Shown here: positions 35,201 to 49,534 of the stretch, in pieces | Numbering within the stretch: position 1 is the stretch's first letter | How the letters are laid out: each line of letters begins with the position of its first letter | Source: Planctomycetota bacterium | Lineage (GTDB): Bacteria; Planctomycetota; Phycisphaerae; Phycisphaerales; Phycisphaeraceae | Assembly (NCBI GenBank): GCA_016350165.1 | Contig: CP066225.1 | Coordinates: 3,720,001 to 3,784,000, forward strand | DNA length: 64,000 nt | Direction of reading: 5' to 3' | Position numbers and translations under genes: made by a program | Notes under the pieces: generated by a model | What the model saw: the letters and a program-made list of their open reading frames with translations, nothing else | The model's database searches: none | What the model was told of the DNA's origin: nothing

Positions 35201-36058
35201 ATGACGTGTATCAAAGCATTTCAGTATATCAGTATCACTACGATCATTGCTTTGACATTTGGTTGTGTATCCTCCGGCGGTGAGATGGATAAACCCGATC
35301 AGCCAACAGAAGATCTGCGTGAACAGGAACAGCAGCAGTCATTAGAGCCGGCGGAGAAGCCTCACCCACTTCAACGTGGCGATCTGACATATTCGCAAAT
35401 TAAAGGTGATTTACACGATGGCTATTACACCACACCGGATCGATTTATATCGATTCGTGAGCCGTTGCTGCAGGAACCAACCCAGTTGATGTATGATCAC
35501 TATGATAAGAATCTGCATTTCTGGACAATGCATTTTTCCGATCAGGAAGGTCGCGTATACACACTTTCATGGGGAAATCCAGTTGGTTTTGAACTCCCGC
35601 CAGCTCCAGAGGTTGATCATGAAGAAGCTTCAAAGCTTGTCGATGATTATTTCAGAGGCCTCTCGGAACAAAACGAGAAAGTCACCGAGCTATACACTTA
35701 TTATGACGCAACGCTTGATGGCGGCGGTGTAATCACCATCTATCATCAAGAAGGTAAAAGTGACGTCTTGCGCTCATGGTTAGAACCGCATCCCGACAAG
35801 CCCGGCGAGATGATGAAAAAATACGAAAACCTCGATCGTTATTACATCACATTCTCAAGTATGCATGCTGGCAAAGTTGTTCATATGGAGATTGATGATC
35901 GTGCGAATATGTTCGAAGAAGATCACGCAAATCTCGGCGAAAATCACAATATGTGGAACACAGAACGGCAAAAAATATTGATTCATGAAATTGAATCATG
36001 GGTCAAATCTATGCGTTATGGCACAGCGGTCCCTGTCATGAATCAAAAAATGAACTGA
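35201..36058 (+). CDS. Putative lipoprotein of unknown function
   Basis: 285 residues. The signal sequence ends at lipobox LTFGC (Cys at about 22), followed by a polar, Gln/Glu-rich linker (about 25-55) and a soluble domain. The domain has no motif that I recognise, but alternating strand/helix and many aromatic residues suggest a folded extracytoplasmic module. No ribosome site is obvious. It stands alone between the MerR and scpA transcription units. Confidence 0.7.
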   Translation: MTCIKAFQYISITTIIALTFGCVSSGGEMDKPDQPTEDLREQEQQQSLEPAEKPHPLQRGDLTYSQIKGDLHDGYYTTPDRFISIREPLLQEPTQLMYDHYDKNLHFWTMHFSDQEGRVYTLSWGNPVGFELPPAPEVDHEEASKLVDDYFRGLSEQNEKVTELYTYYDATLDGGGVITIYHQEGKSDVLRSWLEPHPDKPGEMMKKYENLDRYYITFSSMHAGKVVHMEIDDRANMFEEDHANLGENHNMWNTERQKILIHEIESWVKSMRYGTAVPVMNQKMN

Positions 36059-39499: not shown

Positions 39500-39534
39500 A
39501 GCATCGCGCTTATGTATGAGTGCGGTGCTTTTTT
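39500..39534 (+). terminator. Intrinsic terminator of the kdsDC unit
   Basis: AGCATCGCGCT / AGTGCGGTGCT (11 bp with G-T wobbles), an 8-base loop and TTTTTT. It overlaps the end of the convergent membrane protein gene. Confidence 0.8.
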
Positions 39535-40768
39535 ATGTCCCATTCAAACGCTGTTTATCCAAAAAACGATTGATCTCGTAAACTAAGCACGCGACTTCAT
39601 TAATGTCTGTGTATTGGCTATGCAGTTCAATAACATGTTCATTTTTATCCTCAGCACACAAACTATATTTAAACTCTTCATTACCTCTGTTCGTATGCAT
39701 CCGATACATTCGCCCATATACCCGCTGTAAATCAGAGAATCTTGCAGAATACTTAAACCCCATTGGAAGTGGCCCCGCCTTTAAAACCGCATGTCTTCTT
39801 GAAATTTCATATGTTGCAGTATTAAATAACGACAATAACGCAACATAAAACAAAGTTATTCCGAACAACCCCGGTAATATTACAAAGAAAAATAATGGGG
39901 CAAGGATAAATACAAAACCAAGCAAGCCTTGATGATGCGATATATCATTGAAAGTATTCCAGCCAAAACCAATAGCAATTCCCAGAAAAAATAGGGATAC
40001 AAAAAGTATCAAAAAATACGGCTTATCTCTAAACGTTTGTGTGATCAACAACCCATTCTTAATTTCTTTAAACGCTAATTCCCCTTCATAATCAGGCTCT
40101 TCACCTTCTTTAAAATCAAGTCCGATATGATCTTCTATCAACCCTTCGTGTTTATACGAGAACTGACCCGTAATAAATTTATCCTGAATATTCAAATGCT
40201 TTTCGAGTGCATATTCCATGTACGCAGCATGATTGAAATTCGTCAGATTACTTAAAAGCCTGTAGTGTTTTCCATTCTTACACTTCGCAATCACCTTAAA
40301 AGTAAAGATATGCCGCTTCATGTGATCATGCTTAGAGTGCCGCTCATGCTTGATGCGTTTAACATATATCTGATCAATATCAGCACGCAAAAAAGTATGA
40401 GAACGTTTTATAGGTAGTGGACCATAGTTAATTTTTACTTCACGATCATCAATCACAAAGCAGCATCGATTGATCAAATTTGCGATGCCAACATACCCTG
40501 TAATAAAGCTCAATCCCAATGCAACGTAAAGCCATCCAGCGTATTCAACTCCAATCTGAGTATCATTGACCGTAATCGTACCTCCATTTGCAAAAACACT
40601 TTTCAGAGAAAAGAAAATGGATAGGAAAATCAGAGTACCAAACAGATACACCAAACTCGCCTTGGCGTTCAATCTCTTATAGATCAGTACAATACGATTA
40701 TTCTCTTCTTTAACTTGAATCGAGCGTGGTCTTACTGCTGCAGCTTCAAGCTTTACTTCATCAGACAT
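39533..40768 (-). CDS. Double-unit membrane PH-like protein (paralog family 2)
   Basis: 411 residues that look like two fused copies of one unit: helix pair plus a beta-rich domain. Unit 1 has helices at about 40-60 and 77-100 with the core DREVKINYGPLPIKRSH; unit 2 has helices at about 250-270 and 284-325 with RRHAVLKAGPLPMGFKY. The GPLP core after the second helix recurs in the three upstream genes. The fold resembles bacterial PH (DUF304-type) domains. GAGGG nine bases before the ATG at 40768 fixes the start. It is last gene of a four-gene operon. Function is unknown. Confidence 0.75.
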   Translation of the reverse strand: MSDEVKLEAAAVRPRSIQVKEENNRIVLIYKRLNAKASLVYLFGTLIFLSIFFSLKSVFANGGTITVNDTQIGVEYAGWLYVALGLSFITGYVGIANLINRCCFVIDDREVKINYGPLPIKRSHTFLRADIDQIYVKRIKHERHSKHDHMKRHIFTFKVIAKCKNGKHYRLLSNLTNFNHAAYMEYALEKHLNIQDKFITGQFSYKHEGLIEDHIGLDFKEGEEPDYEGELAFKEIKNGLLITQTFRDKPYFLILFVSLFFLGIAIGFGWNTFNDISHHQGLLGFVFILAPLFFFVILPGLFGITLFYVALLSLFNTATYEISRRHAVLKAGPLPMGFKYSARFSDLQRVYGRMYRMHTNRGNEEFKYSLCAEDKNEHVIELHSQYTDINEVACLVYEINRFLDKQRLNGT

Positions 40769-40786
40769 CTCAAGCAACCCTCAAAA

Positions 40787-41521
40787 TTACATATCCAAAT
40801 TTTTTTCTAACAGATGCTCCCCCACCACTGCTTGATCTTTAATGCCAAGCTGCTTCTCAAGGACTTGCTCAATCGCGCGTGCTTGCTCAGGATCATCGAT
40901 CCTTGATAGAAGCTTTATATCTCTGTCATCATTCGTGATGACATTCAAATTGTACGAATATGTTGTCGAGTCACTGCCCCGGTGGACCTTCTCTTTTACG
41001 TACAACTGCCTTATATTCAGTGCCGATATCTTTCGGTTACCAAACCAAGGTATTGGTCCATGTTTTACCGTCAATTTTTGAGTATCTAAGCGTATGACAG
41101 TCTTATTAATAAATGAACATATCACCGCATAAGTCAACGATAAGCCTATTGCAACAAGCACAATGGAAAACAGCTTTACCATTAATGGTGAATCCGCATC
41201 ACTAAACGCCATCGAATACCAAACAACTAAAAAACCATCCCAAAAGATCACAAAAACCAGCATCGCAAACACCGCATGCGAGTACCATTTTCTCGTTATT
41301 TGATATGCATTGTGAGTTTCTTCAATTTTAATACTACCGATATCCTCAATATCAATCTGCGGCCGGATTGCACTTGACTTCATCACTTCTGATCGATTTT
41401 CTTGCACCAAACTAGAAAATGATGTGATCGAATTACAGTGTTCACAATGCCCCATCATCGTGTCCAGATTTAAATTCTTGGACTTGATCGTTACGCCACA
41501 ACCGATGCATTCAATCTTCAT
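40787..41521 (-). CDS. Zinc-ribbon membrane PH-like protein (paralog family 2)
   Basis: A 244-residue protein. The N-terminal zinc ribbon (C5, C8, C26, C29: CIGC...CEHC) is followed by a linker, two helices (about 88-110 and 120-145) and the domain core KLTVKHGPIPWFGNRKI, LNIRQLYVKEK and a C-terminal QVLEKQLGIKDQ helix. The same order occurs in the 41565 gene. The start is at 41521, or the ATG at 41530. It lies 18 bp upstream of the double-unit gene. Unknown role. Confidence 0.75.
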   Translation of the reverse strand: MKIECIGCGVTIKSKNLNLDTMMGHCEHCNSITSFSSLVQENRSEVMKSSAIRPQIDIEDIGSIKIEETHNAYQITRKWYSHAVFAMLVFVIFWDGFLVVWYSMAFSDADSPLMVKLFSIVLVAIGLSLTYAVICSFINKTVIRLDTQKLTVKHGPIPWFGNRKISALNIRQLYVKEKVHRGSDSTTYSYNLNVITNDDRDIKLLSRIDDPEQARAIEQVLEKQLGIKDQAVVGEHLLEKNLDM

Positions 41522-41564
41522 ATGTAGCATCCCAAAATATTACATGCGAACCAATAACCAAAAC

Positions 41565-42281
41565 TCACTTTTTGAACTTATATTTCCTCGAACTTTTTTT
41601 CTCACCTTCGCTCAACCCAAGCTGTTCGTTCAATATCTTTTGCAAGTAAAGTGCATATGATTTTTTTTCTAATCTCGCTGCGATCATGATTTTTTTATCA
41701 TTAATCATCTTCGCAAAAAGATTCCAACGAGGTTCCCCATTCACTTCAACCGAGCTCTTCTTAATATCAAGTTTCTTTATCTGCGATGGTATTAATCGTT
41801 TATTGCCCCGCCAGGGCAGGGGGCCATGCTTGATTCGCAATTCATTAAACTCAACAGTGTAGACCGTTCGATTGATTAGCCCTGTAATCCCCGAGTAAAA
41901 CATGCACCAACCCACACAAGAGAATATGCCTCCAAAGATAATGAACGGCATGATCTCGTCAGGTAGTTGCCCTTTCGTGAACAACGCAATAAATTCATCT
42001 CGGAAAAGCATTAGTGGCACGGTCAAGAATATCAGCGAAATCAGAAATATAAGCACATATCCCCCACTAAACCAAGTTTGCACCATTCTGAATCCATGGC
42101 TACGGCTATCTATCTGGTAGTTAGTAGGCTTCGTATATAACTCTTCTGAATTCTCAGCCTTCCCTTTCTTAGGCCCAATAAATGTAATCGAGTCGCACAC
42201 ATCACACTTTGCGATCATATTCACAACACTAATGTTCTTCGCAGTAATGTCTTCATCACAATGTTCGCATACAACTTTCAT
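41565..42281 (-). CDS. Zinc-ribbon membrane PH-like protein (paralog family 2)
   Basis: A 238-residue protein with zinc ribbon C5, C8, C26, C29 (CEHC...CDVC), two helices (about 72-95 and 112-138), the core ELRIKHGPLPWRGNKRL, and a terminal helix KILNEQLGLSEG. GGAG eight bases before the ATG at 42281 fixes the start. The C-terminus is Lys/Ser-rich. It is second in the operon, 43 bp before the next gene. Confidence 0.75.
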   Translation of the reverse strand: MKVVCEHCDEDITAKNISVVNMIAKCDVCDSITFIGPKKGKAENSEELYTKPTNYQIDSRSHGFRMVQTWFSGGYVLIFLISLIFLTVPLMLFRDEFIALFTKGQLPDEIMPFIIFGGIFSCVGWCMFYSGITGLINRTVYTVEFNELRIKHGPLPWRGNKRLIPSQIKKLDIKKSSVEVNGEPRWNLFAKMINDKKIMIAARLEKKSYALYLQKILNEQLGLSEGEKKSSRKYKFKK

Positions 42282-42296
42282 AGTCACTGCTCCATT

Positions 42297-42890
42297 TTAA
42301 TGATTAACGTGACTTTTACCTGAAGCTTCTTCTAGATTCTCATTATCTCTAGCAGAACGAAGCTGCTCGTTCAAAGTTTTAACGATGTACATCGCTGTAC
42401 CATGATCACAAATCTGTGATTTGATCGTCCTCTTAATGCTGAACTTTCCAATCACATAAACCGAATAGTAACCACGTCCACCTCCCCCACGATCAGACGT
42501 ACTGTGAAATCTAATGCCAACCTCTTTAATCTCGTCACACTTCCAGCTTACATTTCCGAAAAACCATATCGGGTGATGCTTAATCGTAAGCTTTTCATTT
42601 GTCACTTTGACCGTCGTTTTATTAACCAGACTCGCGATCGTGTAGTAAGTAACCGGCTGTATGATTGCTGAGAACAGAAGAATCGGCGCGATCGGATGAA
42701 AACCCTTTAACTCAAAATCAATGATGCCGGTCCAAGCCGCAATCAAGACCAGGATAAAGCTATTGAATAATATCACCGGAAGTAACAGCACAAGTGTAGA
42801 ATATCGAAACCAAGGCATCGTCAGCGAAAAACAATCGTTACCCTCAACAACTTTAAATCGTTTGGGTTTCATATCCTTTGTGTTGCCCAT
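42297..42890 (-). CDS. Membrane PH-like protein without zinc ribbon (paralog family 2)
   Basis: 197 residues. Two helices (about 30-55 and 70-90) are followed by KLTIKHHPIWFFGNVSW (the family core with GP replaced by HP), a Gly-rich loop and the KTLNEQLRSARD terminal helix. The zinc ribbon is absent. AAGG nine bases upstream supports the start. It is first gene of the operon; only 15 bp separate it from the next. Confidence 0.75.
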   Translation of the reverse strand: MGNTKDMKPKRFKVVEGNDCFSLTMPWFRYSTLVLLLPVILFNSFILVLIAAWTGIIDFELKGFHPIAPILLFSAIIQPVTYYTIASLVNKTTVKVTNEKLTIKHHPIWFFGNVSWKCDEIKEVGIRFHSTSDRGGGGRGYYSVYVIGKFSIKRTIKSQICDHGTAMYIVKTLNEQLRSARDNENLEEASGKSHVNH

Positions 42891-42918: not shown

Positions 42919-43230
42919 TTAATCCATCATCTCCAGCAAATCATTAATCTCAGATGCAGCATGTTGATCCCCCGCTTCCACCGCCATCTTGACTCCCAAC
43001 TCCAACACTTTCTTCGCATCTTCTTCTTCCCCCAGCTCACTGAACATCTTCCCCTTCTGGAAGTATGCGTAGCAATAATGCTTGTCCAGCTTCAGCGTCT
43101 TGTCCAACCATTCAAGCGCCGTCTCAAACGCCTCAGCCTTCGCATATTCCAAAGCGATACCATACGGCACGAATGGGTCCGTCGGGTCAGCTTCATACAT
43201 TGTCTTCAATTGATTTAAGCGATCACTCAT
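42919..43230 (-). CDS. Small TPR-type protein
   Basis: A 103-residue helical protein, about two to three tetratricopeptide repeats (DPFVPYGIALEYAKAEAFETALEWLDKTL, split here as helix pairs; AYFQKGKMFSELGEEEDA). It probably mediates protein contacts. The ATG at 43230 lies seven bases from a minus-strand TATAAT (43237-43242), so the mRNA may be nearly leaderless; no ribosome site is seen. It is upstream of the membrane paralog operon on the same strand. Confidence 0.8.
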   Translation of the reverse strand: MSDRLNQLKTMYEADPTDPFVPYGIALEYAKAEAFETALEWLDKTLKLDKHYCYAYFQKGKMFSELGEEEDAKKVLELGVKMAVEAGDQHAASEINDLLEMMD

Positions 43231-47776: not shown

Positions 47777-49534
47777 ATGAAACCACTTCAAAGCGTCGAC
47801 TTCTCAAGCCTCGCCATCATCCTCATTACACTGCTTGCAGTTTTTGTCTATCTTGCGATTAGGTCATTCCGTGGCAAGCGAATCGACGACCATTTTATCT
47901 GCCCAAAATGCAAGTACGATTTGCATGGCAACGCCCTCCCATATCAAACCTGTCCCGAATGCGGCCACGACATTTCCGACCCATACAAGCTCATCTATGG
48001 CAACAGAATCCGCAAGCCAAAACTCGCTATCCTCTTTATCCTCCTCGCTCTCACAACACTCATCCCATTTGGCTACAAAGCCGCCGACATCGACATCAAC
48101 GACTACAAACCCTTCAATCTACTTGTTTTTCAGCTAACAAATCCCCAGTACACATTAAACATAGATAACATCTTCGGCGAACTTCACCAGCGCATTAACG
48201 CTGACGCGCTCACACCAAAACAAGTCAACAAACTTGCCCTCACAATCCTGCCTTACGTTGAACCGAAAAGCTCAACAACTTACGATCGCAAATACTATGA
48301 CCTGTTCGACAAGATATATAATTCGCCTCATATCTCATCAGAATTTAAATCTCAATTCTTCGCTCATCTCATCTATTGGCTCACGCAAAAACAACTCAAC
48401 ACCTTCGGCCTATACACCGACAACCACTTGCCTTCTCTCTTCGCTTCCTCTCACGTAAGCCAAAAACAACGACTCGCAAGCATTATCCAAATGCTAAAAG
48501 TCCTTGAAAATAAGCCTTTTGATAGCAAATACAATGAAAGTACCATCTATCAACTCCTCGTAACAGCACACCTCAACGGTTGGCTAAACGAACAGCAAGC
48601 ACACCAGTTCGCGCAAAGCATCTCTTCATATCAGTTCTTCTCGCAAGCTTATCATGACCCCATGACAAAAAAGCCAGTATGGAATTGGCATCTCGCATAC
48701 AACAACCGTTACTCCCCACTCATGGGTCAATACGGCACCTTCAGTCTCTACCCACTCATCACCTTCAAGCGTGAGTTCTATCTGCGAGGATTTAATATCG
48801 ATGGTAAATTTCATCCACTCGTCATCTCCGCACACGAATTATTCAGAAGCATGCAATTTGATTCACAAGTTGGCCCACAAAAAATAGCCAAAAACCAAAT
48901 GCCATTCCGTTCCGACTTGCCCTTCGAAGTCGGCAAAACATATCAAATCAGCCTCGTCTTTGATGTGAATTACTCATTCAATCTCAACAAACAAGATCCG
49001 TTGATTACAACCATCACAACCCCGCCCACTACTTTTACCTTCTCAAAAACCTTGCCCGAAATCGAACTGGTTCTTGACGACAAAGTAGCTGAACTTTTCG
49101 TCAAATCCTTCAATACACTACCAGCCTGCAGCCCAGAATCTCCCTTCCGCCAGGACCCAACGCAACTCATCTTGCCTCATCAAATCTCTTACGAAATAGA
49201 TCCAAAAGTCGGCTTCCAAAATCGTCGATTCCCCATCTTCTATCTCATCAATGATCTCAACACCCCAATCGCATATCGCATCTACGTCGAATACGACGGC
49301 ATCGAATACGACACCGAACGCGTCTTTAAATCACAACAATCACTCACAAAATTCTACTGGGATAAATCATTCAAAAACATCCCACCTTCACTTGTTGGCA
49401 AACAAGTCAAACTCATCCTACGCCCAGACATTCACACCGCTCAAACCCAGCTCGCCACCGACATGATTCTCGCCAACCAAATTCAAATCAATAACGTCCT
49501 CGTCGTTGAATACCCTCTAATACAAGATGATTAA
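47777..49534 (+). CDS. Zinc-ribbon membrane protein, paralog family 1 (long form)
   Basis: 585 residues. Helix 1 (about 11-29), zinc ribbon (C42, C45, C59, C62: CPKCKYDL...CPECGHDI), helix 2 (about 83-100), then a large extracytoplasmic part. The family segments are TAHLNGWLNEQQAHQFAQSI (about 263), LRGFNIDGKFHPLV and KTYQISLVFDVNYSF. A second Ig-like unit ends KQVKLILRPDI...IQINNVLVVEYPL, as in the 24201 protein. Its N-terminus matches the 13731 protein. Repeat element B lies directly downstream. Function is unknown. Confidence 0.78.
   Translation: MKPLQSVDFSSLAIILITLLAVFVYLAIRSFRGKRIDDHFICPKCKYDLHGNALPYQTCPECGHDISDPYKLIYGNRIRKPKLAILFILLALTTLIPFGYKAADIDINDYKPFNLLVFQLTNPQYTLNIDNIFGELHQRINADALTPKQVNKLALTILPYVEPKSSTTYDRKYYDLFDKIYNSPHISSEFKSQFFAHLIYWLTQKQLNTFGLYTDNHLPSLFASSHVSQKQRLASIIQMLKVLENKPFDSKYNESTIYQLLVTAHLNGWLNEQQAHQFAQSISSYQFFSQAYHDPMTKKPVWNWHLAYNNRYSPLMGQYGTFSLYPLITFKREFYLRGFNIDGKFHPLVISAHELFRSMQFDSQVGPQKIAKNQMPFRSDLPFEVGKTYQISLVFDVNYSFNLNKQDPLITTITTPPTTFTFSKTLPEIELVLDDKVAELFVKSFNTLPACSPESPFRQDPTQLILPHQISYEIDPKVGFQNRRFPIFYLINDLNTPIAYRIYVEYDGIEYDTERVFKSQQSLTKFYWDKSFKNIPPSLVGKQVKLILRPDIHTAQTQLATDMILANQIQINNVLVVEYPLIQDD

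Follow-up and report, generated by a model that had tools for sequence, protein, structure and literature searches.

Human EROS (CYBC1) is a chaperone of the phagocyte NADPH oxidase NOX2. The pleckstrin homology (PH) domain of EROS has been described as residues 1-20 (strands 1-2) plus residues 62-166 (strands 3-8 and the helices), with strand 2 separated from strand 3 by a pair of antiparallel membrane helices, and a similar plan is predicted for PIG-H, a part of the GPI-GnT complex (cited sections of PMC9767466). In the complex with NOX2, helices H1-H2 of EROS lie on transmembrane helices TM2 and TM6 and its strands on the FAD domain (PMC13296129, section 3.2). In this report we analyze a bacterial operon that is predicted to encode five units of the same plan. 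The operon occupies positions 39533-42890 on the minus strand of a window of 64,000 nucleotides (G000:C1:3720001-3784000) from a Planctomycetota genome that consists of one contig of 5.23 Mb. Our preferred explanation, which we hold tentatively, is that the locus is a local expansion of a widespread, unnamed family whose members sit in the membrane and bind other proteins, as adaptors or assembly factors and perhaps as heteromers.

Other described proteins invite comparison. YdbS contains two transmembrane helices and one PHb2 domain, YdbT contains six transmembrane helices and three PHb2 domains, and the two genes are adjacent; DdE and DdF are both required for transport of the bacteriocin enterocin DD14 (cited sections of PMC8657885). 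These systems resemble the present operon in that units of two transmembrane helices and a PH-like domain occur singly and fused within one operon. They differ in family, since they belong to bPH_2 (PF03703) and the operon contains no PF03703 match. The soluble PHb1/PHb2 proteins (DUF1696) share the PH-like barrel, but are described as lacking membrane helices and forming rings, and for their membrane relatives DUF1200, DUF304 and DUF2244 the authors thought that strand 1 might be missing (cited sections of PMC2817789). Finally, the photosystem I assembly protein Ycf4 (PF02392) has been termed the plant ortholog of EROS (cited sections of PMC13296129). We use its assembly role as an analogy; a search of this genome with PF02392 gave no match over the cut-off and a single weak one (E 5.51) away from the operon.

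Five related units in one operon

A sequence-only reading of the window had proposed four consecutive genes separated by 15, 43 and 18 bp, the last comprising two fused units. The ATG codons at 42890, 42281, 41521 and 40768 bear out the order, the coordinates and the three gaps; the program-made list of open reading frames opens genes 2-4 slightly earlier, at codons of the same frame that lie a few bases before these ATGs. Gene 1 (P0001, 42297-42890, 197 residues) encodes a single unit. Gene 2 (P0002, 41565-42281, 238 residues) and gene 3 (P0003, 40787-41521, 244 residues) each encode an N-terminal four-cysteine (C4) ribbon followed by one unit. Gene 4 (P0004, 39533-40768, 411 residues) is indeed a doublet in a single frame, with a first unit at 40125-40768 that lacks a ribbon and a second at 39533-40108 that is the most diverged of all.

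We scored the units with a profile built on 83 relatives, all taken from other genomes, so that it contained no window sequence. This profile assigned 260.2 bits to gene 3, the copy closest to the family, 130.5 bits to gene 2, 84.7 bits to gene 1, and 91.7 and 54.8 bits to the first and second halves of gene 4, as compared to at most 1.8 bits for five reversed copies and at most 6.6 bits for the 701 shuffled sequences that were scored (1,000 made). BLAST matched eight of the ten possible pairs at E <= 10, with values from 9e-26 to 5e-06; gene 1 matched neither half of gene 4 at this threshold. These comparisons indicate that the five units are homologous, with a relatedness far above chance, and so sustain the earlier proposal that all four genes encode one repeated unit. 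When the profile included the window units, it recovered all five from their own genome at E values of 5.7e-87 to 6.9e-48, with no other match below E 0.001. Gene 3 as a lone query produced one extra match (C1:3292355, E 7.6e-4), which is absent from the list of profile matches at E <= 10.

The motif [KR][LIV]x[IV]KHGPxPW, which the sequence-only reading had ascribed to every unit, occurs in its strict form in gene 3 only. The corresponding stretch of gene 2 begins with E; the three remaining units, among them gene 1 with HHP in place of HGP, read KHHPIWF, NYGPLPI and KAGPLPM. The ribbons fared better: a check of the residues placed cysteines 5, 8, 26 and 29 as two CxxC pairs at identical positions in genes 2 and 3 and found no CxxC in genes 1 and 4. 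In gene 3 the ribbon covers residues 1-35 (41417-41521), as delimited by a structural model and by the cysteine positions, and the ribbon of gene 2 (residues 1-35, 42177-42281) borrows its limits from the gene 3 model. In an alignment of 88 family members, 71 rows have all four cysteines, 17 lack the whole segment, and no row is intermediate. The 17 ribbonless rows include three from the window and one, from a Planctomyces metagenome-assembled genome (L150:5809-6758), in which ribbon and PH unit lie in different overlapping frames because of either a frame break or a sequencing error. For this putative zinc-binding segment, the Pfam model Zn_ribbon_4 weakly touches 39 of the 88 rows (best E 0.00015).

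Predicted fold and its likeness to EROS

An AlphaFold2 model of gene 3, built on the 88 rows, reached a mean pLDDT of 91.7 and a pTM of 0.75. In this model the ribbon is followed by two strands (64-68 and 73-78), two helices (82-107 and 113-138), six further strands (140-145, 149-155, 163-166, 170-181, 186-196 and 201-208) and a final helix (211-225). The second unit of gene 4 was modeled singly, since the alignment of the doublet (A5) had placed 44 of 45 other rows on its first half. This model shows the same order of elements (pLDDT 91.0, pTM 0.78). In both cases a PH barrel is predicted to be interrupted between strands 2 and 3 by a two-helix membrane hairpin, located at 41108-41278 in gene 3 and at 39824-40021 in the second unit of gene 4 (helices 30-59 and 62-95 of the model). 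Although predicted and not solved, both structures have the barrel of at least seven strands and the C-terminal helix by which the PH-like superfamily is recognized, and PH/PTB folds are numerous at Z 6-9 among the matches listed in the VIA structure searches. We therefore regard a split-PH fold with an inserted hairpin as very probably correct on the strength of these models. The earlier proposal of a membrane-anchored, PH-like fold thus holds in kind, and the unrelated folds that would have spoken against it were not predicted for either unit. Its description of two helices followed by a beta-rich domain needs amendment: hairpin and beta domain are both present, but two strands precede the helices.

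Both models pointed to the same known structure. In Foldseek searches of the PDB at E <= 0.001, EROS in its complex with NOX2 (8kei chain D) was the sole match for gene 3 (9.0e-06) and for the second unit of gene 4 (2.9e-05). VIA-align superimposed 150/164 residues at 3.7 A with Z scores of 11.2 and 11.8, respectively, as compared to 8.0 and 9.5 for the next best entries. For gene 3 this alignment pairs model residues 62-228 with EROS residues 1-164, so that the bacterial models and EROS share the order of elements and the point at which the hairpin is inserted. The differences are that EROS is eukaryotic, that its client is NOX2, and that the cited sections report no ribbon for it. PIG-H was absent from the matches listed. 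The soluble PHb1/PHb2 structures 3dcx and 3hsa ranked lower (Z 7.8 and 7.6 with gene 3, both 7.5 with the second unit of gene 4).

The positive-inside rule is generally used to orient membrane proteins. Across the 88 rows, lysine and arginine average 1.65 per 10 residues before helix 1 and 1.23 after helix 2, as opposed to 0.27 in the hairpin loop. By this rule the ribbon and the barrel would be cytoplasmic and the hairpin would reside in the inner membrane. Gene 1 contains a single hydrophobic stretch above the hydropathy threshold that was used. The most conserved positions of the alignment are P156, N139, W79, H154, E235, E222, W159, P158 and the four cysteines. Since these residues belong to the loop and the tail and form no basic patch, we infer that the units may bind proteins rather than phosphoinositides.

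At the level of sequence, none of the four proteins reaches the cut-off of any Pfam family. Assignment to DUF304/bPH_2 (PF03703), which the sequence-only reading had named for a profile search, has to be rejected on this basis, with distant homology conceivable: the models agree with a PH domain in kind, but PF03703 matched none of the four proteins, and its only hit in the genome at E <= 0.01 is C1:836590-836820. A profile-profile comparison with a 19-row bPH_2 alignment was in register over the hairpin and the first strands, though weak (probability 4.7%, E 0.0084 for one comparison). A Pfam scan of all 88 rows touched 67 families at E <= 0.1; the 25 listed are mostly zinc ribbons and include bPH_10 in 4 rows (best E 0.00041) and the inward-rectifier family IRK in 11 rows (best E 0.00063). 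A zinc-ribbon model was also the best NCBIfam match for 12 rows (E 0.00067). Searches of PDB sequences with 12 rows gave nothing better than E 0.058; with 88 rows the best value was E 0.0071, obtained for inward rectifier (Kir) channels over about 53 residues around helix 1. No Kir chain appears among the 50 entries listed by any of the structure searches, and this similarity is likely a likeness between aromatic-rich helices. We recognized no paper on this family or on a bacterial EROS-like protein in our literature searches, a weak negative since some searches were empty or swamped by rice genes. We file the family as membrane PH proteins with a ribbon and with the insertion so far described for EROS and PIG-H.

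Distribution of the family and origin of the operon

Scanning named bacterial genomes with sequence patterns yielded 99 loci, of which we kept 80. Their titles name Planctomycetota, Myxococcota, Verrucomicrobia, Bacteroidetes, Ignavibacteria, Chloroflexi, Elusimicrobia, Cohnella and others. Because the scan patterns target helix 1 and the HxPxPW loop, forms without either are under-represented in this set. Six of the 80 loci are multi-copy (two copies each in L086, L093 and L123, three each in L140 and L142, four in L148), and fused doublets occur at L043, L062, L065, L067 and L161. The four consecutive copies in an Anaerolineae genome (L148:729-3637) all bear ribbons, and three of them group together in the tree, as in a separate tandem expansion. 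Among 298 genomes drawn from the class and 392 drawn from the phylum, matches of at least 100 bits occurred in 10 and 20, respectively (hand count; four genomes, G000 included, are common to both sets). At E <= 0.001 these numbers rise to 70 of 298 and 79 of 392, counts that are inflated by hairpin-only matches of the type seen at L151-L154. These loci encode Planctomycetota proteins of about 500-600 residues in which the profile match is limited to the hairpin region (positions of about 50-145). They share a FWNGIVSVFV-type hairpin with the family, diverge beyond it, and contain repeats that are presumably DUF3592. Judged by these searches, the family is widespread, patchy, mostly ribbon-bearing and often single-copy. 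The sequence-only reading had named absence of the cluster beyond this strain as a point against itself; the exact four-gene set was indeed not seen in the only congener searched, but the family with its tandem and fused copies is widespread.

The congener (G001) preserves the gene order of the window, in which the neighbors were identified by Pfam: SMC_ScpA, SIS/CBS, HAD, units, TPR, phosphoesterase and a large synthase, presumably CarB. At the same place as the operon it has two unit genes, both with ribbons. An extra plus-strand gene of the congener (L011:10702-11802, 366 residues, N-terminal CFCGSGKKYFQCH) lies between TPR and phosphoesterase, where the window has none. In another genus of the same family (G005), one ribbonless unit lies near the phosphoesterase and the synthase. 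Gene 2 is sister to one of the two congener genes with a support of 90/100, which is below the threshold that the tool marks with a star. The end branches are long for gene 1 (3.84), the second unit of gene 4 (3.75) and the second congener gene (3.65). Uneven branches also occur in the arrays L086 (0.10/2.04), L123 (0.16/2.36) and L148 (0.51 and 0.54 versus 2.02 and 2.66). The GC content of the four operon genes (0.37-0.41) is lower than that of six neighbors (0.475-0.543); the two congener unit genes have values of 0.50 and 0.43.

In the single congener searched, the site of the operon holds two ribbon-bearing genes, so the arrangement of four appears to be a recent local expansion. Loss of the ribbon is more likely than gain in the operon, because 71 of the 88 family rows and both congener genes carry it; the tree favors neither, and no ribbon remnant was seen in the approximately 150 bases upstream of gene 1, which contain the end of the TPR gene. 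Our reading of the operon history is one of local duplication, ribbon loss and fast change, and import may be an alternative source of the extra copies. The tandem duplication, the fusion and the presence or absence of ribbons that were first proposed are supported. The four-gene set is, in these terms, one lineage's elaboration of the family.

For gene neighborhoods we compared all against all of the 80 named loci, five further loci and the window, and ran Pfam on 37 of 49 close co-directional neighbors (12 were removed manually because they overlapped, were short or were very long). None of the Pfam families occurred in more than two of the 37. A Redoxin/AhpC-like gene follows the unit in five loci of Bacteroidota/Ignavibacteria type. 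In the window, the TPR-like gene (42919-43230, minus strand) ends 28 bp ahead of gene 1, adjoins the unit genes in the congener too, and is possibly part of the same transcript. The neighboring frames at 47777-49534 (585 residues) and 35201-36058 (285 residues) gave no Pfam match at E <= 0.001.

Possible roles of the units

How might such proteins work? The proposed unit would consist of an optional N-terminal C4 ribbon and a PH-like barrel split between strands 2 and 3 by an antiparallel transmembrane hairpin. Each unit would grip a partner membrane protein, with the hairpin packed on partner helices and with the barrel, its conserved HGPxPW loop and the C-terminal tail docked on the cytoplasmic part of the partner, as EROS does on NOX2. 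In this manner the units might serve as adaptors for assembly, stability or scaffolding, a role that we propose with slightly more reserve than the explanation as a whole. The five units, derived from one or two ancestral genes, would form a heteromeric set; this arrangement is suggested by the fused pair and by the coexistence of a conserved copy with rapidly changing ones, and perhaps the paralogs assemble into a hetero-oligomer. A bolder version, in which the family is the bacterial counterpart or even the root of EROS-type chaperones that escort membrane proteins, with one chaperone here turned into a five-unit heteromeric machine, seems to us unlikely.

Several observations weigh against the adaptor reading. 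Function is here read from the fold alone, a fold match to EROS demonstrates no function, and EROS may be among few solved proteins with this plan. The two models have most alignment rows in common, and the 88-row profile retrieved 33 PDB sequences at E <= 10, with EROS not among them. Among the loci compared, with Pfam on 37 neighbors, none recurs across phyla as a candidate client. The tree resolves little apart from the gene 2 pair, does not unite the five window units and carries long-branch warnings. In L140 the three branch lengths are similar (0.57, 0.40 and 0.48), so that the uneven divergence seen in other arrays is no general rule.

The closest functional rival is a membrane complex of YdbS/YdbT or DdE/DdF kind that would export membrane-active peptides or protect against them. 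The layout of single and fused genes resembles such an operon, and the bPH_2 alignment matches in register; this match is not significant, PF03703 itself is missing, and we noticed no peptide or transporter gene beside the operon, although no systematic search was made. We consider this explanation doubtful. Somewhat less probable again is that the units belong, as accessory subunits, to one particular membrane enzyme complex and are not transient chaperones. The example of PIG-H argues in favor of this idea, but the loci compared share no conserved neighboring enzyme gene, and the structural matches to Tetrahymena complex IV chains that could be cited for it (Z 6.4-7.4) have an rmsd of 6.7-8.4, an alignment too loose to use.

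Two further explanations appear improbable. An envelope-stress module of PspA kind is suggested by a gene from an uncultured Lewinella (L145:5962-7041), whose product is a fusion of the unit with DUF4178 at the C-terminus (27.5 bits, cut-off 25), and by a Saprospiraceae gene that fuses the unit to a DUF4178-like match just under the cut-off (L137:6016-7155, 24.0 bits); DUF4178 reportedly shares operons with PspA, DUF350 and a polyamine-synthase-like gene (cited sections of PMC11237479). However, DUF4178 matched nothing in the genome of the window or its congener, and of 11 positive genomes among 42 searched only the Lewinella place coincides with a family unit, as far as checked; the search of the Saprospiraceae genome listed a different contig. 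The remaining possibility, that the extra copies are weakly constrained, decaying paralogs that do nothing specific, would fit the very long branches of gene 1 and the second unit of gene 4 and the low GC content. Against decay, all four frames are open and keep their profile match, and the most diverged unit is modeled with confidence in the fold of gene 3, with the caveat that the model is guided by the alignment.

We return to the reading of the units as membrane-embedded adaptors and to what it implies. If the models are right, the EROS-like split-PH arrangement is shared by numerous bacterial phyla and belongs to a family to which the Pfam and NCBIfam scans gave no name. Its small, often single-copy members would be suitable proteins in which to study the partners that a split PH domain grips and a possible ancient origin of EROS-like chaperoning, and the operon would add an example of a single module that has multiplied and may form a heteromer.

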